64,000 nt of DNA from Anaerolineae bacterium. Its GTDB lineage: Bacteria; Chloroflexota; Anaerolineae; DUEN01. Below, in pieces: positions 2,548 through 43,191 of the stretch (position 1 is its first letter; each line of letters begins with the position of its first letter). Under the pieces are notes generated by a model, which saw only the letters and a list, made by a program, of their open reading frames with translations, was not told the origin of the DNA and made no database searches. The DNA lies in NCBI GenBank assembly GCA_025060615.1, contig JANXBS010000008.1, positions 1 through 64,000 of the forward strand, given 5' to 3'. Both the position numbers and the translations under genes were made by a program.

Positions 2548-2603
2548 CTCGCCTTTGATCGCAGACCGGATGAAGGTCGAGCGATGTTCGACCCAATCCG
2601 TCG

Positions 2604-3278
2604 CTATCGCTCCCGATCGAGTCCGGTAATCCGAATCCCTGCGCCTCGGATCTTGTATCGCCGGCTGAGCCCGATGAGGATCGGCGTCAGCCCTTCGACC
2701 ACTACCGCGTTTTGCAGCGGGCCGGCGTCCAGGCCCCGCATCCCGGCCTTCTCCGCCAGCGCAATGGCCACCGCTTTGGCCCCAACATCATCGCCGCAGA
2801 CCAGCACATCACAGTCCACGGGATGGGTGGGGTCCTGGAGATGCTCAGCCGAAACGTTTTGGAACGCGCATACCACGCGCACACCTGGCCCCAGAAGTGC
2901 CTGCGCTTCCTCGGTAGCCGATCTCCCCTCTGGCAGCCAGACCTGGCCAACCTTGGACGGCCGCAGGGGAACGGTAACGTCCACCAATACCTTGCCCTGG
3001 ATCACGTCTTTAATGTGTTCCAACGTCGCCGCGTGGGCGCTATACGGCACCGTCAACACGATCGTGTCAGCCGTCATCGCCGCTACACGATTCTCCATGC
3101 CACGTACCACCGTTTGTCCCAATCGCCGATTCAACTCCGCTGCTTTTTGCTCCGCTTTCTCCTGCTGACGGGAGCCTAGAATGACATCCAAGCCCGCTGC
3201 CGCCCAGCGCAAGGCCAGGCCAGATCCCTCTCGACCAGTGCCGCCCAAAATCGCAATGATGCCAATCTCGATGTTCAA
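2604..3278 (-). CDS. npdG: F420-dependent NADP oxidoreductase (Fno/NpdG family)
   Basis: Transfers hydride between reduced F420 and NADP. The 224-residue protein starts with a Rossmann strand and the nucleotide loop AILGGTGREGSGLALRWAAAG (residues about 9-29), followed by LGSRQQEKA, where the Ser-Arg pair is the usual NADP-phosphate contact. Further family features are VLTVPYSAH, GKVLVDVTVPL and VVCAFQNVSAEHL. It is first in a two-gene minus-strand unit with cofE. The neighbour supports the F420 assignment over a generic NADP-binding protein. Confidence 0.88.
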   Translation of the reverse strand: MNIEIGIIAILGGTGREGSGLALRWAAAGLDVILGSRQQEKAEQKAAELNRRLGQTVVRGMENRVAAMTADTIVLTVPYSAHAATLEHIKDVIQGKVLVDVTVPLRPSKVGQVWLPEGRSATEEAQALLGPGVRVVCAFQNVSAEHLQDPTHPVDCDVLVCGDDVGAKAVAIALAEKAGMRGLDAGPLQNAVVVEGLTPILIGLSRRYKIRGAGIRITGLDRER

Positions 3279-4085: not shown

Positions 4086-5037
4086 CGCATCCATCCGGGC
4101 AGAGGGCCTGGAGAAACGGTTCAAGGACAAGGTAGCGGTCGCCCAGCTCGACTTGGAGATCCGGCGCGGCGAGATCTTCGGCCTGATCGGACCGGACGGC
4201 GCGGGCAAGACCACTACGATCCGTCTCCTAGCGGCAGTCATGCATCCCTCTGCCGGCCGGGCCTGGGTCGAAGGGCTGGACATTGTCACGCAGGCCGAGG
4301 CGCTGCGCCATATCATCGGCTATATGCCCCAGCGCTTCAGCCTCTACGGCGATCTCTCGGTGCGCGAGAACCTGGATTTCTTCGCTGATGTCTTTCACGT
4401 GCGCGGCCGGGAGCGCCAGGAGCGGATCGAGCGGCTCCTCGCATTTGCGCGCCTAGGTGAATTTCAGAGCCGTCGCGCCGCGCATCTCTCCGGCGGCATG
4501 CAAAAAAAGCTAGCCCTGGCTTGCGCCTTGATTCATCGGCCACGCGTGCTCTTCCTGGACGAGCCCACCACTGGCGTGGACCCCATCTCACGCCGAGAGT
4601 TTTGGGACCTTCTGTCCGAGCTGCATCTGCAGGGCGTGACGCTGTTCGTAAGCACGCCCTACATGGATGAGGCCGAGCGGTGCACCCGCATCGGGCTGAT
4701 GCATCAGGGACGACTCATCGAGTTGGGCGATCCTACGCAGATCCGCCAGCTAGTGCCCGGTGAGTTGCTGGCTATCTGGACCGCCGATGCCCGGCGGGCT
4801 AGGCGGGCAGTCGAGCTGTTGGAGGGGGTGTTGGAAACGCAGATGTATGGGGACCTCCTTCATGTATTCGTGGACAACTGCGCTCGGCGGCGGCCGGCCA
4901 TCGAGGCAGCTTTGCATCAGGCCGGGGTGGCGGTTTTCGATCTGCGTCCCAGCCAACCCCGCATTGAGGAGGCGTTCATCTGGCTGATCCGACATCGGCG
5001 GGAGGAGCCGGAGGCGAGCAAAGCCTCACATGACTAA
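4069..5037 (+). CDS. ABC-2 type exporter ATPase, first of a pair, H-loop His replaced
   Basis: ATP-binding subunit (322 aa) of a drug/lipid exporter resembling the first half of YbhF. Walker A is GPDGAGKTT (41-49), signature LSGGMQ (140-145), Walker B LFLDEP (161-166). The H-loop His is replaced by Pro: VSTPYMDEAE, Pro197. The second ATPase has the reverse defect (intact His, altered signature), so the two probably form a heterodimer with one full and one weak ATP site. A C-terminal domain of about 85 residues follows, ending IEEAFIWLIR as in this family. The start overlaps the TetR gene end. Confidence 0.9.
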   Translation: MPSYFDASIRAEGLEKRFKDKVAVAQLDLEIRRGEIFGLIGPDGAGKTTTIRLLAAVMHPSAGRAWVEGLDIVTQAEALRHIIGYMPQRFSLYGDLSVRENLDFFADVFHVRGRERQERIERLLAFARLGEFQSRRAAHLSGGMQKKLALACALIHRPRVLFLDEPTTGVDPISRREFWDLLSELHLQGVTLFVSTPYMDEAERCTRIGLMHQGRLIELGDPTQIRQLVPGELLAIWTADARRARRAVELLEGVLETQMYGDLLHVFVDNCARRRPAIEAALHQAGVAVFDLRPSQPRIEEAFIWLIRHRREEPEASKASHD

Positions 5038-5075
5038 CTGGCAAGTGCACAGAACTGCCGAGCCAGCTTGAAACC

Positions 5076-5119
5076 CGTATCTGAGTCACATCGTATTCGT
5101 ATCTGAAGCACATCGTATT
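5076..5119. repeat. 22-bp tandem direct repeat between the two ATPase genes
   Basis: Two adjacent 22-base units at 5076-5097 and 5098-5119 differ at 2 positions. Each starts CGTATCTGA and ends CACATCGTATT. The spacer between the two ATPase genes (5038-5160) holds no gene. The repeats could be a protein-binding pair or replication slippage; no role can be shown. Confidence 0.7.
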
Positions 5120-29528: not shown

Positions 29529-30557
29529 ATGGCACAGGAACCTTTCATTATCTGTGATAACCTAGTCAAGATCTACAAGGTCGCCAACCTAGAGGTGGTG
29601 GCCTTACAAGGTCTAGACCTGGTCGTGGCTCGCGGTGAATTGCTAGGCATCGTGGGCGCCAGCGGCAGCGGCAAGTCCACGCTCATGAACATCCTGGGAG
29701 GCCTCGATCGCCCCTCGGCTGGCCGCGTTTGGGTGGACGGGTATGACCTGCTCAAGATGTCAGATGCGGCCTTGAACCACTACCGCCGTTCAAAGGTGGG
29801 CTTCGTCTGGCAACAAGGGGCACGTAACCTGATCCCCTATCTGAATGCCCTGGAGAACGTGGAGCTACCGATGACGCTCGCCGGCCTGACGGGGCGCAAG
29901 AAGCGTAGGCGTGCGGAAGAGCTGCTAGAAGCGGTAGGGCTATCCGAGCGTCGGCATCACTACCTCCAGCAGATGTCAGGCGGCGAGCAACAACGCGTGG
30001 CCATCGCAGTCGCGCTGGCGAACAACCCATCGCTGCTCCTTGCTGATGAGCCCACTGGCGAGGTGGACTCGGCGACGGCGCTGACCATCTACAAGACGTT
30101 CCAGGATCTCAACCGCGAGTTCGGAGTGACGACGCTCATCGTCAGCCACGATCCGGGGCTCGCTCGTCATGTGGATCGGGTCGTCGCCATCCGCGACGGC
30201 AAGCTCGCCAGTGAAACAGTACGTCAGTCGGCAGCCGTATTCTCACCTGACGGCGAATTGTTGGCCGAAAACGGCGCTCCGGCGGAGGAGATCTTCGAGG
30301 AGCTAGTGGTGTTGGACTCGGCTGGCCGACTGCAGGTGCCCAAGGAGTATCTGGAAAGATTTGGCATCAAGGGACGCGCTCGCCTAGAGTTAACTGAGGA
30401 GGGCATCCTGATTCGGCCAGCCCCTCCATCAGCCCAGGCCCGGGCAACGGAGACGGAGGTCGCCGAGTTGATACCGACTGCCAGGCATAGGCGGTGGGGA
30501 CTGGCCAGCCTTTTGAGCCGTTGGCGGCATGATGGTGAGGCGGGGAGGAAGCTCTAA
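29529..30557 (+). CDS. ABC ATPase with a C-terminal AbrB/SpoVT-like domain
   Basis: 342 residues. The first 230 are a LolD/MacB-type ATPase: Walker [10 protein letters not shown] (43-51), signature MSGGEQQR (149-156), Walker [14 protein letters not shown]-loop VSHDPG. The tail is unusual: residues about 258-298 ([20 protein letters not shown], then [19 protein letters not shown]) show the swapped-hairpin AbrB/SpoVT pattern of D-x-x-GR-x-x-(V/I)P and E-x-G-I-x-(I/L)-RP. In AbrB proteins this domain dimerises and binds DNA; here it may hold a dimer together or link the transporter to gene control. It abuts the permease gene and its stop overlaps the next start (TAATG). Confidence 0.88.
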
Positions 30558-31264
30558 TGGCGCAAGAGGCGGACGCGTTCTACAACGGTTACGTGGTCGA
30601 GACGCAGAATCTGTGGCGCATATACAAAGTGGGCTCGCGTGAGGTCCAGGCGCTGCGTGGCGTAAATCTCACCATTGAGCCCGGCTATTTCGTGGCCCTC
30701 AAAGGGCGATCGGGCAGCGGCAAGACCACGTTGCTCAACTGTATCGGAGGGCTTGACCGTCCTACCTCCGGCGTGGTGCGCGTGTTTGGGCAGGAGATTG
30801 CCCAGATGAACGACGGCCAGCTCACCCAGTGGCGACGGGAGCGAGTGGGCTTCATCTTTCAGTCGTTTGGCTTGCTCCCCACTCTCTCCGCCTATGAGAA
30901 CGTCGAGCTAATGCTGCGAATCGCTGGGGTGCGCGGCAAGGAGCGCCACGAACGCACGCTCTATTGCTTGAATCTGGTGGGCTTGGGCAAGTGGATCCAT
31001 CACCGTCCGTATGAGATGTCGGGCGGACAGCAACAGCGCGTCGCCATCGCCCGTGCCCTGGCCAACAGCCCTCAACTGATCCTAGCTGATGAACCTACCG
31101 GAGAGCTGGACAGTGTCACCGCGCGCGAGATCCTTGCCCTTTTCCGCCGGATTGTGGAGGAAGAGCATGTGACCATGCTGATGGCCTCGCACGATCCGCT
31201 CGTGGACGAGTATGTGGATTATATCTTACAACTGAGGGACGGCCAGATCGTTGAGCAGAACTAG
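30557..31264 (+). CDS. LolD/MacB-type ABC ATPase
   Basis: 235 residues, standard length. Walker A GRSGSGKTT, Q-loop FIFQSFGLLPTLSAYENVEL, signature MSGGQQQR, Walker [14 protein letters not shown]-loop MASHDPL. It starts within the previous stop codon (TAATG), so the two ATPases are translated together. They are probably the two halves of a heterodimer serving the 974-residue permease. No gene follows closely; a 92-base gap separates it from the aldolase-like gene. Confidence 0.93.
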   Translation: MAQEADAFYNGYVVETQNLWRIYKVGSREVQALRGVNLTIEPGYFVALKGRSGSGKTTLLNCIGGLDRPTSGVVRVFGQEIAQMNDGQLTQWRRERVGFIFQSFGLLPTLSAYENVELMLRIAGVRGKERHERTLYCLNLVGLGKWIHHRPYEMSGGQQQRVAIARALANSPQLILADEPTGELDSVTAREILALFRRIVEEEHVTMLMASHDPLVDEYVDYILQLRDGQIVEQN

Positions 31265-31356
31265 AGTTTCAACTTCATCCAACCCCTTTCTGCGAATTAC
31301 GCGCAAGTGGATCTCCCTCGTTATGTTTCCCCTAAATTCTAACTTCATCGAGGCTT

Positions 31357-32592
31357 ATGTTGACGCTTAACGAGCTCGTTCGCAAGATCATTCGGCTGCG
31401 AGAGAAAGGCCAAGCGCAGATCACCCTGTTGGCTGTCTGCCCTAACTCGGCTGCGGTGCTGGAGGCGGCTGTCCAGGTGGCTGCCCACAATCATATGCCT
31501 ATGTTATTCGCTGCCACGTTGAACCAGGTGGACCGCGATGGCGGCTATACTGGTTGGACGCCGGCCCAATTCGTCCAGCAGATCCAAGCGATGGCCCGCA
31601 AGTATGGCTGGACTGGGCCGCTCTATCCATGCTTGGACCACGGCGGCCCATGGCTTAAGGATCACCATACGCTTCAGCGGCTTTCGTTAGAGGAGACGAT
31701 GGCTGAGGTCAAGCGCAGCCTGACAGCCTGTCTAGAGGCCGGCTACCAATTGCTGCACATTGACCCCACGGTGGATCGCACGCTGCCCCCTGGACAGACG
31801 ATCGCCATCGAGACCGTGGTGGCGCGCACGCTGGAGCTGATCGCGTACGCCGAGGCTGAGCGACAGCGGCTAGGGTTGCCCCCTGTGGCCTACGAGGTGG
31901 GAACCGAAGAGGTACACGGTGGATTGGTGGACTTTGCCAACTTTGAGGCGTTTCTAAGCGGCCTGCGCGCTGGCCTAGAGACACGTGGCTTGTTGCACGC
32001 CTGGCCCTGCTTCATTGTGGGCAAGGTAGGAACCGACCTGCACACCACGGACTTCGATCCTCTCGTAGCCAGCCGGCTGTATGAGCTCGTGGCGCCGCTG
32101 GGATCGCTTATCAAGGGGCATTACACTGACTGGGTAGCCAATCCGGAGGCCTATCCGGCCACCGGGATGGGAGGGGCTAACGTCGGACCGGAGTTCACAG
32201 CGGCCGAGTACCTGGCGCTAGCTGAACTGTCAGCTAAAGAAGCTGATTTATGTCGCGCCCGTCCTGGCATCGAGCCGTCTAATTTCATGGCTGTGCTGGA
32301 ACAGGCCGTCATAGATTCCGGCCGCTGGCGGAAGTGGCTACTACCCGAGGAACAGGGCTGTGCCTTTGCGGAGCTCTCGGCGGAGCGGCGCGCATGGCTG
32401 GTGCAGACTGGCAGCCGCTACATCTGGACTCAGCCGTCCGTGCTCACGGCCCGAGAGATGCTTTATCGTAACCTGAGCCTCGTCTTGCCCGATCCCCATC
32501 GAGTGGTGGTGGACCGCATCGCTCAGGTCATGGAGAAGTACGTGGTTGCCTTCCACCTGTTCGACAGCCTGACACTGTTTGAGCAGGCATAG
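31357..32592 (+). CDS. GatZ/KbaZ-like protein (tagatose-bisphosphate aldolase accessory subunit)
   Basis: 411 residues of the GatZ/KbaZ family, which in enterobacteria stabilises the class II aldolase GatY/KbaY in galactitol or N-acetylgalactosamine use. Conserved blocks: [81 protein letters not shown] and [12 protein letters not shown]. No GatY-type catalytic aldolase or sugar kinase is seen nearby, so the local role is unclear. It converges on the GNAT-like gene with only 4 bases between stops. Confidence 0.9.
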
Positions 32593-32596
32593 CGCT

Positions 32597-33760
32597 CTAC
32601 GGAAGCGTTTTCTCGTAGATACGGTATGTCTTGTAATGGCGGCCTCCCAGGGCCTTAATGGTGTTGTTGGTTACCGTATTGCTTTCGAGAATCCAGGACA
32701 TCTCGACTTCTTTGTAGCCGCGTTCCAGGGCGGCCTTTCCCATCTCGTAGTACATGACCGCATCGACCCCGCGGGTGCGATATGGCTCGATCACACCCAT
32801 TGCTATGACCCGAATGAGGGTGACCCGGCGTCGCATCTTCCAGTGCCAGAAGAACTTGAGCAGGGTCCACCATTCAGGGACGTCCGGCCGAGGGTAAGCC
32901 AGGCGCAACGGCTGGTTGAGATCGGGCAGGGGCAAGATCACGCCGATGGGACGGCCCTCGGCTTCGGCGATGAAGACGATGGCAGGATCAATGATCTGTT
33001 TTAGATTTTTCGCCATATGATCAATCTCGGCGTCGGTGAGGGGGACGAAGCCCCAGTTCTTCTCCCAGGCCGAGTTGTAAACCGCCTTAAACCGCTCGAC
33101 CTCCTCAGGCAGCCGTCTGAAATCGACGCGACGGACTGTGAAATCACCCCGTTGTCGGATCTTCTCGACCACGCGCAGCAACTTGGCCGGCGCTTGCTCG
33201 GGATGCTCTCGAAAGATCTCGATGTCAATATGATAAGCCAACAGATCCTGGGCTTTGCGGAAGCCAAAGCGCTCCACAAATTCCGGGTAGTAGCAGGGAT
33301 TATAGGTCATGAGGATAACAGGCGGGGAGTCGAAGCCGTCTACCAACATGCCGACCTCATCGTTCGTGCTAAAGTTGGCCGGCCCCCGAATGGCGGTCAT
33401 GCCATGCGCGCGAACCCAGTCACAAGCGGTAGAGAGCAATGCCTCGGCAACCGTATAATCCGGGATCGTCTCAAAAAAGCCGAAGAAGCCAATCCGTTCA
33501 TTGTGGAACTCATTGTGGCGATAGTTAATAAATGCAGCGATTGTCCCTACTATGCGCCCGTTCCGCTCGGCTACGAACAACTGACAGTCCATATGCTGAA
33601 ACGAGGGATTGCGCGCGGGGTCGAGAAAGGCTCGACGCTCGCTGATCAGGGGCGGTACCCAGTTCGGATCGCCTCGGTACACCTCCCACGGAAAGGTGAT
33701 GAAAGCCAGACGCTCTTTAGGCGTGTGGATAGGACGGACGTGGACAGCCTGAGCAGACAT
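32597..33760 (-). CDS. GNAT-like acyltransferase family protein
   Basis: 387 residues with two GNAT-like halves. The first contains QLFVAERNGRIVGTIAAFINYRHNEFH and IGFFGFFETIPDYTVAEALL; the second VFIAEAEGRPIGVILPLPDLN and VIAMGVIEPYRTRGVDAVMYYEMGKAALERGYKEVEMSWIL. The pattern is that of a widely distributed uncharacterised GNAT family with an N-terminal FITFPWEVYRGDPNWVPPL motif. Substrate unknown. It diverges from the nitrilase-fold gene, with overlapping promoter signals between them. Confidence 0.82.
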   Translation of the reverse strand: MSAQAVHVRPIHTPKERLAFITFPWEVYRGDPNWVPPLISERRAFLDPARNPSFQHMDCQLFVAERNGRIVGTIAAFINYRHNEFHNERIGFFGFFETIPDYTVAEALLSTACDWVRAHGMTAIRGPANFSTNDEVGMLVDGFDSPPVILMTYNPCYYPEFVERFGFRKAQDLLAYHIDIEIFREHPEQAPAKLLRVVEKIRQRGDFTVRRVDFRRLPEEVERFKAVYNSAWEKNWGFVPLTDAEIDHMAKNLKQIIDPAIVFIAEAEGRPIGVILPLPDLNQPLRLAYPRPDVPEWWTLLKFFWHWKMRRRVTLIRVIAMGVIEPYRTRGVDAVMYYEMGKAALERGYKEVEMSWILESNTVTNNTIKALGGRHYKTYRIYEKTLP

Positions 33761-33789
33761 CGGGCAACCTCCAGCCAGAGGATGTCCCG

Positions 33790-33841
33790 ATTATACCACT
33801 GTGCTCCGGCGGTTGGAAAGCGGTGGCGAATGTGGTACAAT
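33790..33841. promoter_or_regulatory. Back-to-back divergent promoters sharing one -35 region
   Basis: Plus strand: TTGGAA (33813-33818), 17 bases, TACAAT (33836-33841), for the nitrilase-fold gene. Minus strand: the same six bases read TTCCAA, 17 bases, TATAAT (33790-33795), for the GNAT-like gene. The -35 matches are weak, the -10 boxes good. Confidence 0.55.
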
Positions 33842-33882
33842 GCTTTTTACCCCAGCCGCAAATCCGGTTCAGGGAGGCTTGA

Positions 33883-35175
33883 ATGGATACGGTGATCGTC
33901 GCCTGCGCTCAGCAGCGGCTACGCCTGTATGGATCGTTAGACGAATACCGACATGATTGTATGCGCTTTCTGCGAATGGCACAGAGCAAAGGTGCATCCC
34001 TCATTGTCTTCCCGGAGCTCTCCGGCCTGATGGCCGTTGCGTCCCGCCTGCCGGGAGTGCGCGCCAGCCTGCTACGCCAGGCTGACCAAGGCCGCCAGCG
34101 CGGCGCCTCGCTCTGGAAGCGGGCGAAAGCGCGCGTGGCCGAGTCTACGGCGGAGTTGCTGGGGGCCGACTTTCGCGCCGCTCTGGCGCGCTACCTGGCT
34201 GAACGGGGCAGCGAGCTACGTCGTGAAGTGGAGCGGCTCTTCGCTGAGCTCGCTCGCGGGTACGGCATGTATCTCATCATCGGAGCAGGATATCTCCCAG
34301 GCGACGGCCCGGGGCAGCGAGCGTTGGCCCTGGCCTTTAGCCCCCAAGGGGAATTGATCGGCGAGGCCGCGCGCGTCGGTCTGCTTCCCGAGGATGGGGG
34401 GATGATTGCGCCGGGTGAGACGTGGACTGTGGTGCAGACATCTATAGGTCGGCTTGGCATCCTGCTAGGAGGCGATGTGCTGTATCCAGAGGCAGCGCGG
34501 CTGCTAGCCTATCGCGGCGCTGATGTGCTGGTGGTGATGGCCGCAACTAGCGATCCTGCTCTGGCCGCTCGCATTCGTATGGCGGCGTTAGCCCGCGCTC
34601 AGGAAAACCAAGTCTTTGTGTTGGCTAGCTTCCTGATTGGCAACAACCCGCTGCGGGGCGATAACGCCCAGTTCACCGGCCGTTCAGCCATCCTGGCGCC
34701 GGCGGAGATGACCGAACGTTACACGGGCATCCTGGTCGAGATGGGCACAGCCGCCGCTGAGGGGTTAGTCGCAGCCGAGTTGAACCTTAAGGCGTTGCGG
34801 AAGCTATGGCAAGGTGGGGAGTTCTCCGCGCGTCAGGGCACACCACTGATGTTAGCTGGGCAAGCCCTGGTGGCCGAATATACCCTGGGCCGCTCCGTTG
34901 ATGAGGCTTGGGCGGATGTGGAGGCATCTCGCCGGCAAACGCTGCTACTGCCCGGCCCGGCGCGCCCATCGGTGGTCCCGGTAACCGAGCTGCCGATTGT
35001 GGCGGTGAGCGAAGGCCCTGTCGCATTGGCGGACGAAGAGTCGCCCCAGGCCCTGGCCGAGCTGGAAGCCCAACGGATGAAGGAACAGCCAGAAACAGGC
35101 CAATCCCAGCCGCCTGATGGGCTTTCCAATAGCCCACAGCCTGAAAGGCCGAGCAATGAAAGCTCAGAGCTTTAA
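33883..35175 (+). CDS. Nitrilase-superfamily fold protein lacking catalytic Lys and Cys
   Basis: 430 residues. The carbon-nitrogen hydrolase fold is clear: Glu45 in IVFPELSG, LIIGAGYLPG, FSPQGELIGEAARVGLLPED (145-171), RLGILLGGDVLYPEAARLLAYRGADVL (190-216). In active enzymes the Lys lies in the R-K-x-x-L-P segment and the Cys in ICYD. Here these read RVGLLPED (Val165) and LGGD (Gly196), so both are missing and ordinary amidase chemistry is unlikely. An insertion of about 80 residues (50-125) and a Pro/Gln/Ser-rich tail (about 385-430) are extra. It may be a binding or regulatory protein. Confidence 0.8.
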   Translation: MDTVIVACAQQRLRLYGSLDEYRHDCMRFLRMAQSKGASLIVFPELSGLMAVASRLPGVRASLLRQADQGRQRGASLWKRAKARVAESTAELLGADFRAALARYLAERGSELRREVERLFAELARGYGMYLIIGAGYLPGDGPGQRALALAFSPQGELIGEAARVGLLPEDGGMIAPGETWTVVQTSIGRLGILLGGDVLYPEAARLLAYRGADVLVVMAATSDPALAARIRMAALARAQENQVFVLASFLIGNNPLRGDNAQFTGRSAILAPAEMTERYTGILVEMGTAAAEGLVAAELNLKALRKLWQGGEFSARQGTPLMLAGQALVAEYTLGRSVDEAWADVEASRRQTLLLPGPARPSVVPVTELPIVAVSEGPVALADEESPQALAELEAQRMKEQPETGQSQPPDGLSNSPQPERPSNESSEL

Positions 35176-35261
35176 AAAAGCCTCCTGAGCGCGCATCAAC
35201 GGGAAGGACGCGACCCAGGCACTGGTTGGATCGCGCCTGGCCTGCCAGCTCAGCGACATTA

Positions 35262-35471
35262 TTACACCCGCTTGACCACCTCACCGATTTGGCGGGCGGC
35301 TCCCAGGATAACGAGGCCTAAGCGCACCCAATCCATGGGGCCAAGCCTAGGTATTGCGTGCGCTCCTCCCCTCTCTTCCTCCTGTGCGCCTGCATAGATC
35401 CAAGCGATGAGCGCGCCCAACAGCGCCCCAGACACGATACCGAGGAGGATGCTTCGCTGACGTCTGCTCAT
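35262..35471 (-). CDS. Small membrane protein (69 aa)
   Basis: Unrecognised. A short basic start (MSRRQRS), one strong membrane span (ILLGIVSGALLGALIAWIYAG), an acidic patch (EEERGG), then a second amphipathic stretch (WVRLGLVILGAARQIGEVV). It resembles YtxH-like gas-vesicle/stress membrane proteins in layout only. It overlaps the preceding gene by 4 bases (ATGA), so the pair is real and co-translated. Confidence 0.65.
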   Translation of the reverse strand: MSRRQRSILLGIVSGALLGALIAWIYAGAQEEERGGAHAIPRLGPMDWVRLGLVILGAARQIGEVVKRV

Positions 35472-35791
35472 GGGTTCACCTCATTGGGATCCTTGGTTGG
35501 CAGAGATGAGCTAACGGGGCGCCCCCTAAGCGCGCGCGCAATGGCTAGCACGCAAGTTGCCCAGACATGCGCCCGGATTATAAGCTGGGCGGCTTTACGG
35601 CTTCCACCCTCCACTAGGCTCGTGGCCTGATGGGCGCGCGCCTGGGCACGAGGCATGAGGCCGTACAGCTGCTGACGAGCCTTGCGCATCCCTCTGAGGC
35701 CGAAGAGCAGCAACACCAGGGGGATAGCCCACGCGATCAGGGATAGAAAGGCGAGGAAGACCAAGGCGATGTTCGCCCATGTATGGATCAT
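35468..35791 (-). CDS. Small membrane protein (107 aa)
   Basis: Unrecognised. Residues about 7-33 form one or two membrane spans (ANIALVFLAFLSLIAWAIPLVLLLFGLRG), followed by a basic helical region (ARQQLYGLMPRAQARAHQATSLVEGGSRKAAQLI). It is coupled by ATGA to the 69-residue membrane protein, suggesting a two-protein membrane unit. Confidence 0.65.
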   Translation of the reverse strand: MIHTWANIALVFLAFLSLIAWAIPLVLLLFGLRGMRKARQQLYGLMPRAQARAHQATSLVEGGSRKAAQLIIRAHVWATCVLAIARALRGRPVSSSLPTKDPNEVNP

Positions 35792-35830
35792 ACGTGTTCC
35801 CCGGCCATGAAGGTACTGGACAGCATCCTC

Positions 35831-36232
35831 TTAGAGCTTTCCATCGCCGGTGGCATTGGGATCAGAAGCTTGTTCGTGGTTTGCTCGCCCGCGCAAATCC
35901 ACTCGGAAGTCCCCGGCGAGAGATACGTTCACTACGCCAGGCGCCTGAAGCAGCCGCTCCGCGACCTGAGGTGTACAGACGAGGAACAGCACATTGAACG
36001 CCGTCGCATCCCCGATCTCCGCCACCTCGTGCGATAGACCTTGCTCTTTAATCCAGTGAATCAGGCCTTCCTTGAATTCAACGCTGTTGTTGCGAAGGAC
36101 CTGATATCTCATGTCTCGATTGTATCCGGCTAGCTCCTGAGAGGATGGCCGCTCTAGAGTGACCATCACCTTGACCATACCTGGGAAACGATCAGGCTGT
36201 ACAGGCTCTACCGGCGTTTCCGCGTTCCTCAT
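35831..36232 (-). CDS. Small partner of the S8 protease, propeptide/inhibitor-like (133 aa)
   Basis: Unrecognised by name. Its beta-alpha-beta pattern, VKVMVTLERPSS ... VEFKEGLIHWIKEQG ... EIGDATAFNVLFLVCTP, then VAERLLQAPGVVNVSLAGDFRVDL, resembles the I9 propeptide fold that inhibits and helps fold subtilisins. It overlaps the protease gene stop by 4 bases (ATGA), so it is made together with the protease. A stand-alone inhibitor or chaperone role is inferred, not shown. Confidence 0.65.
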   Translation of the reverse strand: MRNAETPVEPVQPDRFPGMVKVMVTLERPSSQELAGYNRDMRYQVLRNNSVEFKEGLIHWIKEQGLSHEVAEIGDATAFNVLFLVCTPQVAERLLQAPGVVNVSLAGDFRVDLRGRANHEQASDPNATGDGKL

Positions 36233-37485
36233 ACGAACCTCGCTAATCCGACACCAACCCGATTCGGCGGCGCGGTCAGGGGCATTGCCTGCTCGATGAG
36301 GTGTTGTCGAAGCGCATGGCCTTGCAACCCGGGGTTGGCTGAAGCAAGCAACGCTGCGATCCCCGCGACGTAGGGAGCGGCCATGCTGGTGCCGCTCATA
36401 CGAGCATACAGGCTGCGCCGCTCGATGTCCCGCTCGAAGCTGGAGACGATGTTGACCCCATATCCTACGATTTTCGGCTCTGGCTCTCCTGTCAAAGGGG
36501 ACAGACCACCACCGCTGAAGGAGGCCGGCCTCAGGTGAAAATCCACAGCTCCCACTGAGAGCGCTTCAGGGAAGTAGCCTGGCGCCCGCACGACGCCAGG
36601 TCCATCATTCCCAATGGCCACCACAGGAAGCACATCGAAATCCTCCACCAGGGTTGAGAGGATAAGCCTCATCCCCTGAATGACGGCCTGGTATTCAGCC
36701 CCGCTGATCCACTCTGGCCGGAATCCCAAGGACATGTTGATGATGATGGGCTTGCTCAGGTTCTCCTCTCGTCGGAACTGCGATAGCATCCAATCGAGCG
36801 CCACGATGATGCGCTCTAGGCTGGTTTTGAGCATCTCACTCTCGATCACCGAGGCCACCATTAGCTCCGCCGCTGGAGCGATCCCAACGTTTTGGCCGGC
36901 GATGATGCCACACACGTGCGTGCCATGTCCATCTGTGTCGAACCCGCGGCAGGCGCGCACGGCCTCACTAGAGGGGTCGAGTGGCACATAACGGAATTCG
37001 ATCCGCTTATCGCGCAGTTCAAGATGATCGGCGTCACAGCCGGTATCCAGCACCCCGACCAGCACTCCTTGACCAGTCGCGCCGTTCCGGTGGGCGATGG
37101 AAACGCCGCTTTCAGCCGGCCAGTGAGGACGCCGGCGTGGGCGTCCAAGATGACTTCGAGCGCGGACAGGCTGCGGCAAGGCCAGCTGAATGTCAGGCAC
37201 GATCTGGTAAGCGGGCTCAAGGATTTCCCTGGCCTGCTCGGCCATCTGAGGATTAGGGGTGTCCACGATATAAGCGCCCACGAATCCTAGCCGTTGAAAG
37301 CTCTGTATAGCCACCAGGCTTCGTTCCTCCGGCCTGATCTGGTGAAGGCCCAGCGCGCGCAGCGCTTTAGCCCGCTCAGAGAACTGGGAATCTTTGATTA
37401 GAAAAGAGCGTCTTTCCTCGACCGACGCCGTTGTCCTCATCATCTGGGCACGTGGCACTTTACGCAAAGCGATGAACTTGGGCAC
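36229..37485 (-). CDS. Subtilisin-like serine protease (S8), no signal peptide
   Basis: 418 residues. Catalytic Asp in VGVLDTGCDADH, His in DTDGHGTHVCGIIAG, oxyanion Asn in VAIGNDGPG, Ser in SGTSMAAPYVAGIAALL. The region before the catalytic domain (about 60-105, with FVGAYIVDTPNPQMAEQAREI) looks like an I9-type propeptide. No signal peptide or membrane span is seen, so it is probably intracellular. GTG at 37485 with GGAGGG upstream. A good promoter precedes it. It is coupled to a small propeptide-like gene. Confidence 0.9.
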   Translation of the reverse strand: MPKFIALRKVPRAQMMRTTASVEERRSFLIKDSQFSERAKALRALGLHQIRPEERSLVAIQSFQRLGFVGAYIVDTPNPQMAEQAREILEPAYQIVPDIQLALPQPVRARSHLGRPRRRPHWPAESGVSIAHRNGATGQGVLVGVLDTGCDADHLELRDKRIEFRYVPLDPSSEAVRACRGFDTDGHGTHVCGIIAGQNVGIAPAAELMVASVIESEMLKTSLERIIVALDWMLSQFRREENLSKPIIINMSLGFRPEWISGAEYQAVIQGMRLILSTLVEDFDVLPVVAIGNDGPGVVRAPGYFPEALSVGAVDFHLRPASFSGGGLSPLTGEPEPKIVGYGVNIVSSFERDIERRSLYARMSGTSMAAPYVAGIAALLASANPGLQGHALRQHLIEQAMPLTAPPNRVGVGLARFV

Positions 37486-37505
37486 GACATTCCCTCCTCA
37501 CCTCG

Positions 37506-37534
37506 ATTATACGTTTTTTGCCAAACGGGGTCAA
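37506..37534 (-). promoter_or_regulatory. Promoter of the S8 protease gene
   Basis: Minus strand TTGACC (37529-37534), 17-base spacer, TATAAT (37506-37511), about 20 bases before the GTG start. Confidence 0.8.
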
Positions 37535-37575
37535 CCGGACCAGGTTCACGCGAACCTTTTTCCGAACCTCCGTGT

Positions 37576-37581
37576 TATAAT
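37576..37581 (+). promoter_or_regulatory. Probable -10 element for fabF
   Basis: TATAAT within GTTATAATGG, 82 bases before the fabF start. No good -35 hexamer is seen at 16-18 bases. Confidence 0.5.
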
Positions 37582-37663
37582 GGCGTAGCACCTGCCTTCG
37601 ACAAAGGCGACTAATTAAAGTTGATCTGCCGAGCTCGCTTTACGAGCAATAGGGAGGTTGTCG

Positions 37664-38920
37664 GTGACGGCAAAGCGTCGACGCGTCGTTGTGACAGGCT
37701 TAGGGGCGGTCACACCTCTAGGGCTAGATGTACCTACCACCTGGTCGAACGTACTGGCTGGACGGTCAGGCGTAGATCGGATCACGGCCTTTGATCCGAC
37801 GCCTTATAAAACCCAGATCGCAGCTGAGGTGAAGGATTTCGACCCCACTCGTTACCTGGAAGCGCGGGAGGCGCGTCGGCTGGATCGTTTTACCCATTTC
37901 GCAGTGGCGGCCAGCCAGGAAGCAGTAGCCGATGCGTGCCTGGATCTCTCGGCAGAGGACCCGCGTCGGGTGGGCATCATGATTGGTTCGGCGTTGGGCG
38001 GCATTCAGACGTTGCTACGTGAGTACGAGGTATTGCAAACCCGAGGCCCTCGCCGGGTGAACCCCTTCTTCATCCCAGCGATGCTGATTGACACGGCGGC
38101 TGGACAGGTGGCGATTCAGTTTGGTGTGCGCGGCCCCAACATGGCGATCGTGTCCGCGTGCGCTACCGGAAATGGCGTCATTGGCGAAGCGGCCGAGATT
38201 ATCCGCCGCGGCGACGCCGACGTGATCCTGGCAGGCGGGAGTGAAGCCGCCGTCCACCCCATTGCGCTGGCCGGTTTGAACGTGATGGGCGCGCTCTCCA
38301 CTCGCAATGACGAACCGCAGCGGGCCTCGCGCCCTTTCGATGCTCAACGCGATGGATTCGTCATCGGCGAGGGGGCAGCGATCCTGGTCCTTGAGTCGCT
38401 GGAGCACGCGCAACAGCGTGGCGCTCGCATTTACGCCGAGGTGCTCTCCTACTCCGCCACCGCCGACGCGTTTCATCTGGCCCAACCGGCCGAAGACAAC
38501 GCCGGAGCCATTGAGGCGATGCAGAACGCCCTATGTCGGGCAGGCTTACCTCCTGAAGCAGTGCAATACATCAACGCACACGGCACATCTACCTTGCTGA
38601 ACGATCGCAGTGAAACGGCCGCGATCAAGCGTGTCTTCGGCGAGCATGCCTATCGTCTGGCCGTATCATCTACCAAATCTATGACTGGCCATTTGCTCGG
38701 TGCAGCAGGGGCCTTGGAAGCGGTCCTGTGCGTCAAAGCGCTGCAGGATCGCGTGCTCCCTCCCACCATCAACTATGAATTCCCAGATCCTGAGTGTGAT
38801 CTGGATTATGTGCCCAACCAGGCTCGCCCAGCGTTTGATTTAGAGATCGTAGCCTCTAACGCGTTTGGGCTGGGGGGACACAATGCCTGTCTGCTCTTAC
38901 GTCGCTGGGATGGGACTTGA
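37664..38920 (+). CDS. fabF: 3-oxoacyl-ACP synthase II (KAS II)
   Basis: Elongating condensing enzyme of fatty acid synthesis. 418 residues with the Cys-His-His triad: SACATGNG, NAHGTSTLLND, SMTGHLLGAAG, plus FGLGGHNACLLL at the end. The GTG at 37664 is chosen because AGGGAGG lies at 37651-37657, 6 bases upstream; the TTG at 37658 abuts that site. fabH follows 37 bases downstream. No acyl carrier protein or FabD/FabG gene is in the window. Confidence 0.94.
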   Translation: MTAKRRRVVVTGLGAVTPLGLDVPTTWSNVLAGRSGVDRITAFDPTPYKTQIAAEVKDFDPTRYLEAREARRLDRFTHFAVAASQEAVADACLDLSAEDPRRVGIMIGSALGGIQTLLREYEVLQTRGPRRVNPFFIPAMLIDTAAGQVAIQFGVRGPNMAIVSACATGNGVIGEAAEIIRRGDADVILAGGSEAAVHPIALAGLNVMGALSTRNDEPQRASRPFDAQRDGFVIGEGAAILVLESLEHAQQRGARIYAEVLSYSATADAFHLAQPAEDNAGAIEAMQNALCRAGLPPEAVQYINAHGTSTLLNDRSETAAIKRVFGEHAYRLAVSSTKSMTGHLLGAAGALEAVLCVKALQDRVLPPTINYEFPDPECDLDYVPNQARPAFDLEIVASNAFGLGGHNACLLLRRWDGT

Positions 38921-38957
38921 CTCGAGACCCAGATAGCCATAAATCAGGGGGAAAACG

Positions 38958-40199
38958 GTGGGACGATATGCACAGATCATCGGCTGGGGAAAGAGCGTTC
39001 CGAATCATGTCCTGACCAATGAAGACCTGGCTCGTATCGTGGACACCAGCGATGAGTGGATCCGCACGCACACAGGGATCCGTCAGCGGTATATCGCGAC
39101 AGATCCGCGGGAAACCACAGCCACGCTAGCTATTAAGGCCGCACAGGAGGCTTTGCGCGTGGCCGATGTGCCGGCCAGCCGGTTGGACATGATCATCGTT
39201 GCTACGGCTTCACCGGAACATATCTTCCCCTCTACAGCCTCCCTGGTCCAGGACGGGATCGGAGCCACCCGCGCGGGGGCTTTCGACCTAAGCGCTGCCT
39301 GTTCCGGCTTTGTCTACGCGCTCAGCGTCGCCCGCGGGCTGATCGTCAGCGGGTCCGCCGAGTACGTGCTGGTGATCGGCTCGGAGACCCTCTCGCGCTT
39401 GGTGGATTGGTCAGACCGAAACACCTGTGTGCTATTCGGGGATGGGGCCGGCGCTGTCCTGCTCGCTGCCAGCGAGGTGCCGGGCGGCATCCTCTCCACC
39501 GTGCTAGGCTCTGATGGATCGGGGGGAAACCTGTTGATCGTGCCCGCCGGCGGCAGCCGGATGCCAACCTGCTTGGAAACGGTGGCCTCCGGGATGCATT
39601 ACCTGAAGATGAACGGCCGTGAGGTCTTTCGCTTTGCGACCCGCGTGATGGCACGAGCCGCACAGGAAGCGGCCGAACAGGCCGGGCTGACCATGGACGA
39701 TATCGATCTGCTGATCCCTCACCAGGCGAATCGGCGCATCATCGAATCAGCTATGAAGCAGCTCAAATTGGACGAAAGCCGGGTTTTCATCAACATAGAT
39801 CGCTATGGCAATACCTCTGCAGCTTCGATCCCCATCGCCCTGTGCGAGGCCATCGAAGAGGGGCGCATCAAACAGAATGATCACCTCATCTTGGTGGGGT
39901 TTGGCGGTGGCCTTACTTGGGGGGCTGCGGCCGTACAATGGAGCGTGCCCTTGCCGTTGCCGGAAACCCCGTGGTGGCGAGCAGCACAGCGCTCCGGCTC
40001 GTTTCATATGGCGCAGGTACGCTCGTTGGGACGGCGGGCGCTGCGGCGCTTGCACAGCATCGCCGCGGGGTCCGAAGAGGAGAACGGACGCCAGCGGCAG
40101 AGCTCCCTTGGTGAGGGCCTTCAGAAATGGCGCGCTCGCTTATGGAAGGCTAAAACAGCCGAGGATGAACCTGCCTCCTCTGAGGAAAAGCCCTCTTAG
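38958..40199 (+). CDS. fabH: 3-oxoacyl-ACP synthase III (KAS III) with C-terminal extension
   Basis: Starts fatty-acid chains from acetyl-CoA or branched acyl-CoA. Catalytic Cys in LSAACSGFVYAL, His in LLIPHQANRRII, Asn in RYGNTSAASIP; the CoA-binding DEWIRTHTGIRQR is present. KAS III normally ends near the FGGGLTWGAAAVQW motif (about residue 330). Here about 85 further residues follow, basic and Glu-rich, without a recognised domain. GTG start with a GGGGGA site. It overlaps the next gene by one base at the stop. Confidence 0.93.
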   Translation: MGRYAQIIGWGKSVPNHVLTNEDLARIVDTSDEWIRTHTGIRQRYIATDPRETTATLAIKAAQEALRVADVPASRLDMIIVATASPEHIFPSTASLVQDGIGATRAGAFDLSAACSGFVYALSVARGLIVSGSAEYVLVIGSETLSRLVDWSDRNTCVLFGDGAGAVLLAASEVPGGILSTVLGSDGSGGNLLIVPAGGSRMPTCLETVASGMHYLKMNGREVFRFATRVMARAAQEAAEQAGLTMDDIDLLIPHQANRRIIESAMKQLKLDESRVFINIDRYGNTSAASIPIALCEAIEEGRIKQNDHLILVGFGGGLTWGAAAVQWSVPLPLPETPWWRAAQRSGSFHMAQVRSLGRRALRRLHSIAAGSEEENGRQRQSSLGEGLQKWRARLWKAKTAEDEPASSEEKPS

Positions 40200-40891
40200 T
40201 GGGGCATCTCTTCCAAGGTGCAGCCGTGCTTCGGGTTGATCCTCTCTTGCCGACAGAGAGATATCCTCGCCCTTCGATGACCGTGGACGTGGTCGTGTGG
40301 GCCGCACGGCAGAGACAGCCTTATGTGCTGCTAATCCGGCGACGCCATTGGCCTTATGAGGGACACTGGGCGCTGCCGGGCGGTTTCATCGAAATCACAG
40401 AAACGCTGGAACAAGCCGCTCGCCGTGAACTGGCCGAAGAGACCGGGCTTGTTGAGATTCCCCTTGAGCCGATACAACCGTTTGATGCGCCAAACCGCGA
40501 TCCCCGCCAACGGGTGATCACTATGGCTTTTCTGGCCGTGCTATGTGAGCAGGAGGCCAACGCTGCGCTGCGAGCCGGCGATGACGCCAGCGATATCCGC
40601 TGGTGGCCAATGGCGGAACTCCCGCCGCTAGCCTTTGATCACGACCGAATCATTGCGGCGGCACGCGGGCATTTACGACGTCGGCTGTTGGGCGAGGACC
40701 TGGGACGTCGCCTATTGCCCGAGACCTTCACGGCTGCTGAGCTGCGCCAGGCTTTCACAGCCCTCTTGGGGGAGCCGATCACAGCGCAGCCTGTGTTGCG
40801 CCTGTTGCGCGCCGCCGGTGTGATTGAGCCGGTAGCGGCTGGGAGCTATCGCTACCGGCAGCCTCCTAACGCGCCCTGGCCGTACTTTTAG
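40199..40891 (+). CDS. Nudix protein with C-terminal winged-helix-like region
   Basis: 230 residues. Start PRPSMTVDVVVWAARQRQPYVLLIRR, Nudix box GGFIEITETLEQAARRELAEETGL, and a C-terminal region (about 150-230) with LPETFTAAELRQAFTALLGEPITAQPVLRLLRAAGVIEP, like NrtR-type regulators or ADP-ribose pyrophosphatase relatives. Intact E residues suggest it can hydrolyse its nucleotide. A GTG at 40199 overlapping the fabH stop is used; the first domain residues lie near codon 27, so a later start (GTG 40226) is possible. A hairpin terminator follows. Confidence 0.82.
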   Translation: MGHLFQGAAVLRVDPLLPTERYPRPSMTVDVVVWAARQRQPYVLLIRRRHWPYEGHWALPGGFIEITETLEQAARRELAEETGLVEIPLEPIQPFDAPNRDPRQRVITMAFLAVLCEQEANAALRAGDDASDIRWWPMAELPPLAFDHDRIIAAARGHLRRRLLGEDLGRRLLPETFTAAELRQAFTALLGEPITAQPVLRLLRAAGVIEPVAAGSYRYRQPPNAPWPYF

Positions 40892-40908
40892 AGCCTATTC
40901 GGGAACTG

Positions 40909-40936
40909 GAAGGGGCGTGATGAATCACGCCCCTTC
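40909..40936. terminator. Long hairpin between convergent genes
   Basis: A perfect 12-bp stem, GAAGGGGCGTGA / TCACGCCCCTTC, with a TGAA loop. It sits between convergent gene ends and probably acts as a two-way terminator, though the T-tracts are weak. Its core differs by one base from the palindrome inside the CHAT gene at 43887-43906. Confidence 0.75.
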
Positions 40937-40969
40937 TTCCTCCTTCCATCGGGATTTTTGGCTGGGTTC

Positions 40970-41626
40970 CTAACCTGCTACAGCCTGTAACAACCGCTCC
41001 AGCAGCATGTGTTCCGGCACAGCCCCTTCGATGTGATACTTCTCGTTGATCACCGTGCGTGGCACCCCCATGACGTCGTACTTGTTAGCTAGATGAGGGA
41101 ACTCGATAGCCTCTACCATATCGGCCGTGATCCAATCGCTTTCCAACGCCAATTGATGGGCGAGCCGCACGGCCCTAGGACAATATGGACAGGTAGGCGT
41201 TACGAACACCTGGATATGCACCGGCACCCGGATGCCAGCCACTGCTTCCTTGGTCTCCTGGGACAGTCCCGATTCTCCTGAAGATACCATTAGGATGTCC
41301 TCTACCAAGGAGCTGAACTCATACCCGGAGGGGATGCCATAATAGCGGATGCCGTAGTCCTTCGGTCGCTCACCCCCGCGCACGATGGCAATGGCCGGGA
41401 TCTTGTCAATCCGATAGGCCTGCACCGGCTCCCGATCTGCCATGAAATCGTACACCTCGACGGAGAGTTTGTCAGACAGCTCGGCCAGCTCCTCGGCAAT
41501 CTGCCGCGTTTCCCGGCAATATTGGCACTCAATCTCCTGTGTGAAAACGACCAGCTTGACCGGCTCGGTCAGATGCTGGAATTCCTGTCGTAGGATTTTG
41601 CGATCGCGCTCACCGAGCAATGGCAT
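40970..41626 (-). CDS. Protein disulfide oxidoreductase (two glutaredoxin-like domains)
   Basis: 218 residues with two thioredoxin folds, each with a Cxx[10 protein letters not shown] (about residue 36) and [10 protein letters not shown] (about 141). A cis-Pro is visible in DKIPAIAIV and in MGVPRTVIN. This is the PDO type found mainly in thermophiles, which forms or shuffles disulfides in cytoplasmic proteins. Minus-strand, 27 bases after OsmC, in a redox-stress cluster with an ECF sigma factor. Confidence 0.93.
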
Positions 41627-41653
41627 GGGATTAACCTCCCTCCTCTGTCATAT

Positions 41654-42079
41654 CTATGCAGTCGGCTCGATCCGATAGCTGCTGGTGATCTCAGCCACCT
41701 CTCCTAGCATAGCAGAGGCCGAGCAGTACTTTTCTTCGGAGAGCTGGATAGCTCGTTCAACGGCCTCCGGAGGGATATCAGGCCCGCGCACCACGTACTC
41801 CACGTGGATCTGCGTGTAGACACGCGGGTGCGTCTCAGCTCGCTCTCCCCGAACGTTGACCTCAAACCCGGTCACGTTCACGCGCTTCTTGTTCAGGATC
41901 GAGATCACGTCCATCGCTGTGCAGCCGGCCAATCCGATCAGCAACAGCTCCATAGGGCGGAAGCCGGCATTTTGGCCGCCATGCTCTGGCGCGCTATCCA
42001 GAGTTAGGATATGACCAGAGGAAGCGGTGCCCTCAAAGCGCATAGCCCCTTGCCAGGTCACTTTCGCCTCTGTAGTCAT
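41654..42079 (-). CDS. OsmC/Ohr-family peroxide-detoxifying protein
   Basis: 141 residues. Family pattern: MRFEGTASSGHILTLDSAPEHGGQNAGFRPMELLLIGLAGCTAMDVISIL, and SEEKYCSASAML with the second reactive Cys; thus both Cys (LAGC and KYC) are present. It probably reduces organic peroxides. The ATG at 42079 has AGGTGA upstream; the longer frame starts at TTG in that site. Copy B of the repeated element begins about 36 bases upstream. The PDO gene follows. Confidence 0.9.
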   Translation of the reverse strand: MTTEAKVTWQGAMRFEGTASSGHILTLDSAPEHGGQNAGFRPMELLLIGLAGCTAMDVISILNKKRVNVTGFEVNVRGERAETHPRVYTQIHVEYVVRGPDIPPEAVERAIQLSEEKYCSASAMLGEVAEITSSYRIEPTA

Positions 42080-42118
42080 CGCTTCACCTTTCAATGTTTG
42101 TGGATTAGTGTGTCTCAG

Positions 42119-42304
42119 GAGAGGTATGGAGGGGTCCCTTCCATGAAAGGCCTTTTTTAGCCCTTACCTGACCCTTCTTGGCTCGGCCGGCCTTCCCAAA
42201 TAGCCAAGGAGGGCAAGTAGAAGGCTGAGTAAAAGCTCCTCCGGAAGAGCAAGTCCCCTCGGACCTCCCCACCTTTTCAACCACGCTCAAGACAGTGATG
42301 CCTC
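42119..42304. repeat. Copy B of the repeated structured element, upstream of the OsmC gene
   Basis: About 185 bp related to copy A. A 12-bp stem (42172-42183 with 42202-42213; one T-G pair on the plus strand) encloses CGGCCGGCCTTCCCAAAT. Flanking blocks AGCCCTTACCTG, GTAGAAGGCTGAGTAAAAGC and TTTTCAACCACGCTCAAG align with copy A. It fills the gap between the anti-sigma gene and OsmC. Confidence 0.8.
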
Positions 42305-42320
42305 AGCGTCTACCAGTCCC

Positions 42321-42569
42321 TTAGATCCAACATTTTAAAATTTTAAACAAGCGCTCTTCGACCTCAGCCGGCAGCATAGGTGGATAAGCCGAGCGGTACA
42401 GCAACACCGTCTTGCGCAAAGTGTCTACCACGATTCGGCAATTCTCGCAAACGGCCAAGTGCGCCTCGACCTCGCGACATAGAGCCGCCTCCAACTCATC
42501 GTCAATGTAATCAGAGAGCAGCCTCAGCAACTGACGGCAAATCTCATGTTCCAGAGCGTGCCGTGTCAT
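42321..42569 (-). CDS. Zinc-finger anti-sigma factor (zf-HC2 type)
   Basis: 82 residues, without a membrane span. It has the ZAS zinc motif H-x3-C-x2-C in AHLAVCENC, preceded by CRQLLRLLSDYIDDELEAALCREVE. Its start at 42569 lies inside the end of the ECF sigma gene (26-base overlap), showing translational coupling. It should bind and hold the sigma factor until a redox signal releases it. The longer frame to 42746 only reads back through the sigma gene. Confidence 0.88.
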   Translation of the reverse strand: MTRHALEHEICRQLLRLLSDYIDDELEAALCREVEAHLAVCENCRIVVDTLRKTVLLYRSAYPPMLPAEVEERLFKILKCWI

Positions 42570-43191
42570 CTGTCCTCTGCCCTTCGGCCTTTTCCTGGCT
42601 GGGCTGCCGAATTGCAAAATACTCGGCCAGCTCCTCTCGCAGTTGAAGCCGGGCCCGATGCAGTCGCACCTTCGCAGCCGATTCGCTGATCCCGAGCGCC
42701 TCAGCCGTCTCGGCTGTGGAAAGGCCTTCGATGTCCCGTAAGACAAAGGCGGCTCGCAGTGTCTCCGGCAACCGGGCGATGGCCGTGTCCATAACCTGCC
42801 GCAGCTCCTCGTTCAAGACATGAGCCTCTGGGTCCCATCCCCACCCGACAAGCTGGCGTGGCGTCACCTCACCGCTCTCCAACTCGATGGGATCCTCTAT
42901 TGAGATGACTTCCAGCCGGCGGCGACGAAGCCGCATCAAGCTGGCGTTAGTAGCGATCCGATACAGCCAGGTTGCCAGGTTTGACCTGCCCTCAAACCGT
43001 TGTACGTGCTGGCAAGCGCTGATGAACGTCTCTTGAAGCACCTCTTCCGCCTCAACCGGATCACCCACCAGCTTTAAAGCAAGACGATAAATGCGCGGTG
43101 AAAAGAGCTTGACCATGGTGGCACATGCCGACCGGTCACCAGCTTTGAGCGCAGCTATCAATGTCTGCTCATCCAGCTCGGGTGAGCTCAC
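42544..43191 (-). CDS. ECF-type RNA polymerase sigma factor (RpoE/SigW-like)
   Basis: 215 residues. Region 2 is seen in YRLALKLVGDPVEAEEVLQETFISACQHVQRFEGRSNLATWLYRIATNASLMRLRRRR, and region 4 in LPETLRAAFVLRDIEGLSTAETAEALGISESAAKVRLHRARLQLREEL. The anti-sigma gene overlaps its 3' end. Downstream on the same strand are OsmC and PDO, so the regulon is probably thiol/peroxide stress. Confidence 0.94.
   Translation of the reverse strand: MSSPELDEQTLIAALKAGDRSACATMVKLFSPRIYRLALKLVGDPVEAEEVLQETFISACQHVQRFEGRSNLATWLYRIATNASLMRLRRRRLEVISIEDPIELESGEVTPRQLVGWGWDPEAHVLNEELRQVMDTAIARLPETLRAAFVLRDIEGLSTAETAEALGISESAAKVRLHRARLQLREELAEYFAIRQPSQEKAEGQRTDDTARSGT

Follow-up and report, generated by a model that had tools for sequence, protein, structure and literature searches.

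A leaderless S8 protease and a stand-alone relative of S8 prodomains in an Anaerolineae genome: a probable PopC/PopD-like gene pair

A stretch of 64,000 nucleotides from an Anaerolineae bacterium of the phylum Chloroflexota (contig JANXBS010000008.1, positions 1 to 64,000; this whole stretch is called the window below) encodes an S8 (subtilisin-like) protease and, directly downstream, a small protein of 133 amino acids. An earlier reading of the letters (the original prediction) had regarded the small protein as similar to I9 propeptides and proposed that it acts on the protease in trans, as an inhibitor or a chaperone. The locus raises the question of what this small protein is and what it does beside a protease that appears to have a prodomain-like domain of its own. 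Its kinship is clear from the sequence, and its function is what we infer. With a probability of about two in three, the two genes form a module like PopC/PopD: a leaderless S8 protease is held inactive in trans by a prodomain homologue that is encoded separately. Computation establishes four points: the overlapping gene pair, the homology of the small protein to prodomains, the conservation of the pair, and the lack of intact proteases without the partner gene.

The protease gene (36229-37485, minus strand, as are all window coordinates given here) starts with GTG and encodes 418 amino acids. Its product belongs to the S8 family, matching Peptidase_S8 (PF00082) with an E-value of 2.5e-40. The catalytic region covers residues 126-418 (36232-37110); the triad D147/H187/S367 and the oxyanion residue N293 are invariant in 15/15 aligned orthologues. 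A hydrophobic N-terminus is absent: the most hydrophobic 15-residue stretch among the N-terminal 60 residues averages 0.10 on the Kyte-Doolittle scale, which is a hydropathy check and not the output of a signal-peptide predictor. The full triad and the missing signal peptide of the original prediction are thus borne out. Two cysteines, C150 and C192, adjoin the motifs of the catalytic Asp and His and are kept in 15/15 and 14/15 orthologues, respectively; the two may serve as a redox or metal switch.

The protease also has a prodomain-like N-domain (residues 1-102; 37180-37485), as had been supposed. The structure model of the protease (mean predicted local distance difference test score, pLDDT, 71.3, with a partly poor catalytic domain) aligns over residues 1-418 with unprocessed pro-subtilisin E (3whi_A; Z 25.3, 312 aligned residues, root-mean-square deviation 4.0) and with pro-Tk-subtilisin (Z about 24). 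Mature subtilisin chains align with the model from residue 126, over about 236 residues. Because the pro-forms align from residue 1 and the mature chains from residue 126, we assign a prodomain-like N-domain to the protease itself. The Pfam scan gave no I9 match for this domain, and its profile did not match the profile of cis prodomains described below, so its likeness to I9 rests on structure.

The small gene (35831-36232) starts with ATG, and the folded core of its product spans approximately residues 18-110. Its start codon and the stop codon of the protease gene share the motif ATGA at 36229-36232, the overlap noted originally, and the coordinates given then are exact. The overlap probably couples the translation of the two genes, and on the same basis they would belong to one operon. 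Among relatives, the ratio of nonsynonymous to synonymous substitution rates (Ka/Ks) ranges from 0.11 to 0.23 across six informative pairs, and a seventh, near-identical pair gives 0; these values mark the small gene as a real gene.

What relates the small protein to prodomains is a comparison of profiles. Starting from the prodomain of a further S8 protease encoded in the genome of the window, we collected 26 related N-terminal regions (recovered out of 30 loci returned) into a profile of cis prodomains; 24 of the 26 are followed in frame by an S8 domain. The profile of the small-protein family (A7) aligns with it over 99 columns (hhalign probability 80.3, E-value 1.4e-5), a score reached neither by any of 200 column shuffles nor by the reversed profile. 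The cis prodomain profile matches 6/17 members of the family singly at E ≤ 0.001. In whole-genome searches A7 also matched a giant S8 protease of a poribacterial genome (G736, E-value 4.0e-6) in its N-terminal region, directly before the catalytic domain. By both the profile alignment and this match, the small protein has sequence homology to S8 prodomains.

A further link is provided by the NCBIfam model of PopD, NF048005. It matches the small protein of the window with an E-value of 1.6e-4 (21.8 bits, below the cut-off of 200) and 16/17 of the small-protein relatives (best E-value 1.3e-9). These matches suggest that PopD, the small-protein family and S8 prodomains are related domains, and they are not proof of orthology to PopD.

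The predicted structure is in agreement with this kinship. The model of the small protein, built from 17 sequences, has strands at residues 20-26, 70-73, 81-86 and 100-105 and helices at 39-63 and 88-94; the core blocks have a mean pLDDT of 92-97, and the tail from approximately residue 110 has low confidence. In the alignment the last strand is followed immediately by a conserved tail: position 108 is acidic and position 113 is Leu or Ile, each in 16/17 rows. A Foldseek search returned nothing at E ≤ 0.001. Its second-ranking match was chain J of the Aspergillus alkaline-protease entry 8gkp (91 residues, E-value 0.021), which we take to be the prodomain of that protease; the prosegment of subtilisin BPN' ranked 50th, among other ferredoxin-like folds. 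In a second structure comparison, a NusG-type fold was at the top (Z about 8), and chain P of PCSK9, read as the prodomain from its range 70-152, had a Z of 6.6.

Several results weigh against the proposed reading. The fold search is unspecific: NusG-type and other ferredoxin-like folds rank level with or above prodomains, so the fold agrees with I9 but is not specific for it. Pfam I9 misses the small protein of the window and each of seven members in the Pfam scan, and we therefore do not claim membership in that family; the I9-like character seen in the original prediction stands as homology to cis prodomains and a compatible fold, and not as a match to the family itself. Taken alone, the small protein of the window is missed by the cis prodomain profile at an E-value of 0.05. 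The bit scores of NF048005 are 19-34 where shown, none of them above the cut-off, one member of the family (L038) has no match, and a cis prodomain (P0001) matches the model as well (9.1e-4, 19.4 bits). With scores so far below the cut-off and P0001 scoring alike, these matches do not establish orthology to PopD. Finally, a protease with its own prodomain-like domain has no obvious need for a second one.

Other searches with the small protein returned little. In the genome of the window, the A7 profile gave only the window gene at E ≤ 10, and a single-sequence genome scan found no relative. Sequence searches of solved structures with the small protein, A7 and the profile of a second family (A8, see below) gave nothing or chance matches, and plasmid searches with the small proteins of L030 and L041 gave no match.

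The pair is conserved. We scanned the named genome contigs with the central region of the protease and obtained 28 loci; two with frames of about 1200 amino acids and no small gene (L050, L051) were left out, and ten (L040-L049) were handled as a separate family. The remaining 16 (L024-L039), all close relatives, come from Roseiflexus, other Chloroflexota and Poribacteria; in each of them the small gene lies downstream. The protease is full length in 14 of these loci, all with the small gene; it is cut by the contig start in L025 and broken in L039. The ATGA overlap recurs in L024-L030, and the distance is larger in L032 (161 nucleotides) and L038 (203 nucleotides). The small genes of L035 and L038 are too distant to cluster by BLAST and were located by position and profile. 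Only the protease and the small gene recur throughout the 17 loci. In L038, an Anaerolineae contig, reading also shows a clpX gene directly upstream of the protease (1769-3091).

In a sample of 400 genomes of the phylum of the window, the protease was found at E ≤ 1e-80 in six, and the same six have strong small-gene matches (three further weak small-gene matches were left out). Five loci from phylum mates (L013-L017) have small genes with the same sequences as in named Chloroflexota contigs. A further pair lies in L009, which comes from a sample of the class in which 2/298 genomes matched. As so few genomes match, the distribution of the pair is sporadic. Among these 400 genomes and 78 poribacterial ones, no full-length protease lacks the small gene; the conservation check suggested earlier thus came out positive, with 14/14 full-length orthologues paired in the named contigs, 9/9 in Poribacteria and 6/6 in the phylum of the window. 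The mirror-tree correlation between protease and small protein is high (r 0.85, reached in 0/2000 permutations), a value confounded by common descent. Some candidates were rejected: the open reading frames (ORFs) of the weak matches L018-L023 (E-values 0.001-0.01) contain no S8 motif, and for two of these matches the surrounding regions (L107, L108) gave no match to profile A7 or A9.

A similar arrangement is found in the ten loci treated separately. They encode distant S8 proteases in cyanobacterial, planctomycete, Methylomirabilota, Solibacteraceae, proteobacterial and Chloroflexi records. In eight of them (L040, L041, L044-L049) a gene of approximately 117-133 amino acids stands directly after the protease, at about 4650-5080 of each locus; the cyanobacterial L042 and L043 do not have it. 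The profile of these small genes, A8, matches the cis prodomains (E-value 1.7e-7, 0/200 shuffles) and A7 (E-value 7.3e-5, 0/200 shuffles). It also matches the N-domains of the L040-L049 proteases themselves, nearly full length in 8/10 (E ≤ 6.5e-4) and in part in the other two. None of the eight A8 members matches NF048005.

In Poribacteria the two genes have been lost unequally. A7 matches in 17 of the 78 genomes; the match in G736 is the cis domain, leaving 16 genomes with a stand-alone small gene. The protease is full length in nine of them (G660, G662, G688, G689, G697, G720, G734, G738, G744). The other seven have no intact protease: fragments occur in G692, G695 and G696, and nothing at E ≤ 1e-25 in G714, G715, G721 and G728, with small remnants kept in G721. 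The small genes whose protease is decayed or absent (L089, L093, L094, L095, L097, L099, a second copy in G688, and L103; L096 was left out) are open, with Ka/Ks of 0.08-0.26 over 21 pairs, values that include the time before protease loss. For comparison, six paired small genes gave 0.10-0.31 over 15 pairs (one near-identical pair at 0). That the small gene outlasts the protease fits an inhibitor or antidote; this is suggestive only, since gene length alone gives a probability of about 0.19 for the protease being lost first 7 times in 7 (under the assumption of independence, which the losses may not satisfy), and some of the genomes are drafts. In the remnant at L094:1956-2420, profile positions 1-19 run in frame into 309-419, with the catalytic Asp and His gone and the small gene intact. 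In G744 the small gene in tandem (L105) extends across a stretch of N and may result from misassembly.

The poribacterial neighbourhoods have a further feature. A convergent gene of a Type ISP restriction enzyme (e.g. L031:5133-8192) adjoins the small gene in 12/17 distinct informative loci (G660, G721, two loci each in G728 and G738, G688-C51, G696, G734, G689, G695 and G692). It is not in the fetched stretch at G688-C44, G720, G714, G744 and G662; G697 and G715 were outside the count owing to contig ends. Type ISP genes are abundant in Poribacteria (62/78 genomes, up to 21 copies), and the synteny may therefore be one inherited arrangement. No restriction-type neighbours were seen by reading the ORFs around the pair in the window and in Roseiflexus, where the neighbourhoods are ordinary. 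For the window pair the role in stress or defence suggested originally is a conjecture, and it is only in Poribacteria that copies adjoin restriction-type genes.

Taken together, these data suggest the following scheme. The first gene would produce a leaderless S8 protease that includes an I9-like N-domain, and the second, probably translationally coupled, a stand-alone S8 prodomain homologue. As the protease already has an I9-like N-domain, the small protein would be a second prodomain-like domain, supplied in trans. It would dock on the catalytic domain and keep the protease inactive. By analogy with PopD, the bound protease may also be held inside the cell, and removal of the small protein, e.g. 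by a regulatory protease, may release it. Binding, inhibition, release by degradation and any export thus belong to the proposed part of the scheme. The outer-membrane Oar-type export step of PopC/PopD is not expected in Chloroflexota.

Three other explanations have to be weighed. In one, the small gene encodes an unrelated protein of ferredoxin-like fold and stands in the operon by chance. The level or higher ranks of NusG-type and other ferredoxin-like folds speak for it; the profile homology with its shuffle controls, the match to a cis domain in prodomain position and the constant pairing with S8 make it very improbable. Another, which we consider unlikely, casts the small protein as a chaperone dedicated to folding the protease (a foldase in trans) and not as a lasting inhibitor. 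The abstract of PMC6993865 ascribes to S8 prodomains the roles of both intramolecular chaperone and inhibitor, and constant pairing with full-length proteases would be expected of a foldase too. However, the protease already has a prodomain-like N-domain, and in 7/16 poribacterial genomes the small gene is intact where no intact protease is left as a client.

The same asymmetric loss can be read as the trace of an antidote-protease module of the toxin-antitoxin or abortive-infection kind, in which the protease would harm the cell once its prodomain-like antidote is lost and would serve in defence. The Type ISP neighbours, single poribacterial cases of FRG, OLD/AriA-like and PDC-S54 neighbours, and the sporadic distribution of the pair are in line with this. 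Nevertheless, we find it improbable: the neighbourhoods in the window and Roseiflexus are ordinary, Type ISP genes are abundant anyway, gene length goes some way to account for the order of loss, and the PADLOC matches of the protease are generic subtilase/IetS ones. The reading of an inhibitor in trans is thus the one we prefer, and the original prediction named the objects correctly, its idea being largely right. A wider generalization is tentative and rather doubtful: a bacterial 'locked protease' module might exist, in which a cytoplasmic S8 effector has a stand-alone prodomain as its antidote. As each of two S8 families has a prodomain-like partner of its own, such a module might have arisen more than once; PopC/PopD would be the one case studied so far, and in Poribacteria the module would have been drawn into restriction or defence loci, the antidote outliving the protease.

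Some features surround the pair. A sigma-70-like promoter, TTGACC-17-TATAAT, lies at 37506-37534 and agrees with the consensus in 11/12 bases, in line with the promoter noted originally; it is a consensus match only, and the stretch examined has two promoter-like sites against 0.8 expected in shuffles. A ribosome-binding site AGGAGGG (37492-37498) is read 6 nucleotides upstream of the GTG. Approximately 40 nucleotides 3' of the small gene are two small ORFs, 35468-35791 (107 amino acids) and 35262-35471 (69 amino acids), which overlap by ATGA and by reading have a hydrophobic stretch each. They may belong to the same operon; the family scan gave no confident match for either, and they are not among the genes recurring across the 17 loci.

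How does the pair compare with known systems? Bacterial intracellular subtilisins are likewise leaderless S8 proteases, and their structures are among the sequence matches of the window protease. They have a short N-terminal extension, whereas the window protease has a full prodomain-like domain and a partner gene. Large S8 proteases of the same class have cis prodomains homologous to the small protein; in them the domain lies within the protease chain, and in the window it is a separate gene. IetAS, an anti-phage system, combines a subtilase with a partner AAA ATPase. The window pair does not conform to it: the protease gives weak, generic PADLOC matches only, the small gene gives none, and reading of the ORFs at 30000-43000 revealed no AAA partner with the pair; all that appeared were two ATPases of ABC transporters, encoded on the opposite strand at a distance of about 5 kb.

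I9-like subtilase inhibitors that stand alone include Pleurotus POIA1, yeast Pbi2, Arabidopsis SPI-1, Toxoplasma MIC5 and Plasmodium SUB1-ProM; the cases named in the part of PMC6993865 consulted are eukaryotic, with no bacterial one among them. They share with the window pair a separately encoded protein of prodomain fold paired with a subtilase, and the SUB1-ProM gene also adjoins subtilase genes. The C-terminal tail of I9 inhibitors enters the active-site cleft (PMC6993865). They differ in having no demonstrated sequence kinship to the window family, and A7 has no evident counterpart of their conserved Glu-x-Asp helix cap.

The closest counterpart is PopC/PopD of Myxococcus xanthus. As described in PMC6434023 and PMC4320627, PopC is a leaderless S8 protease with an N-terminal part and a C-terminal subtilisin domain; PopD forms a complex with it and prevents its secretion, and on starvation PopD is degraded. 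The inhibitor gene directly follows the protease gene in one operon (PMC4320627), and the window has the same order, a leaderless S8 protease and then a small partner gene, with the operon judged from the ATGA overlap. The small proteins also match the PopD model, though with scores far below its cut-off. Our searches of open-access literature returned no title or abstract that describes PopD as prodomain-like or reports the protease/small-gene pair in Chloroflexota or Poribacteria. On sequence grounds, the comparison suggests a way in which PopD-like proteins may act, namely as relatives of S8 prodomains that are encoded on their own. An arrangement of the PopC/PopD type, studied in Myxococcus, thereby extends to Chloroflexota, among them filamentous phototrophs (Roseiflexus), and to Poribacteria; in further phyla, too, S8 proteases occur beside a prodomain-like partner with a gene of its own.
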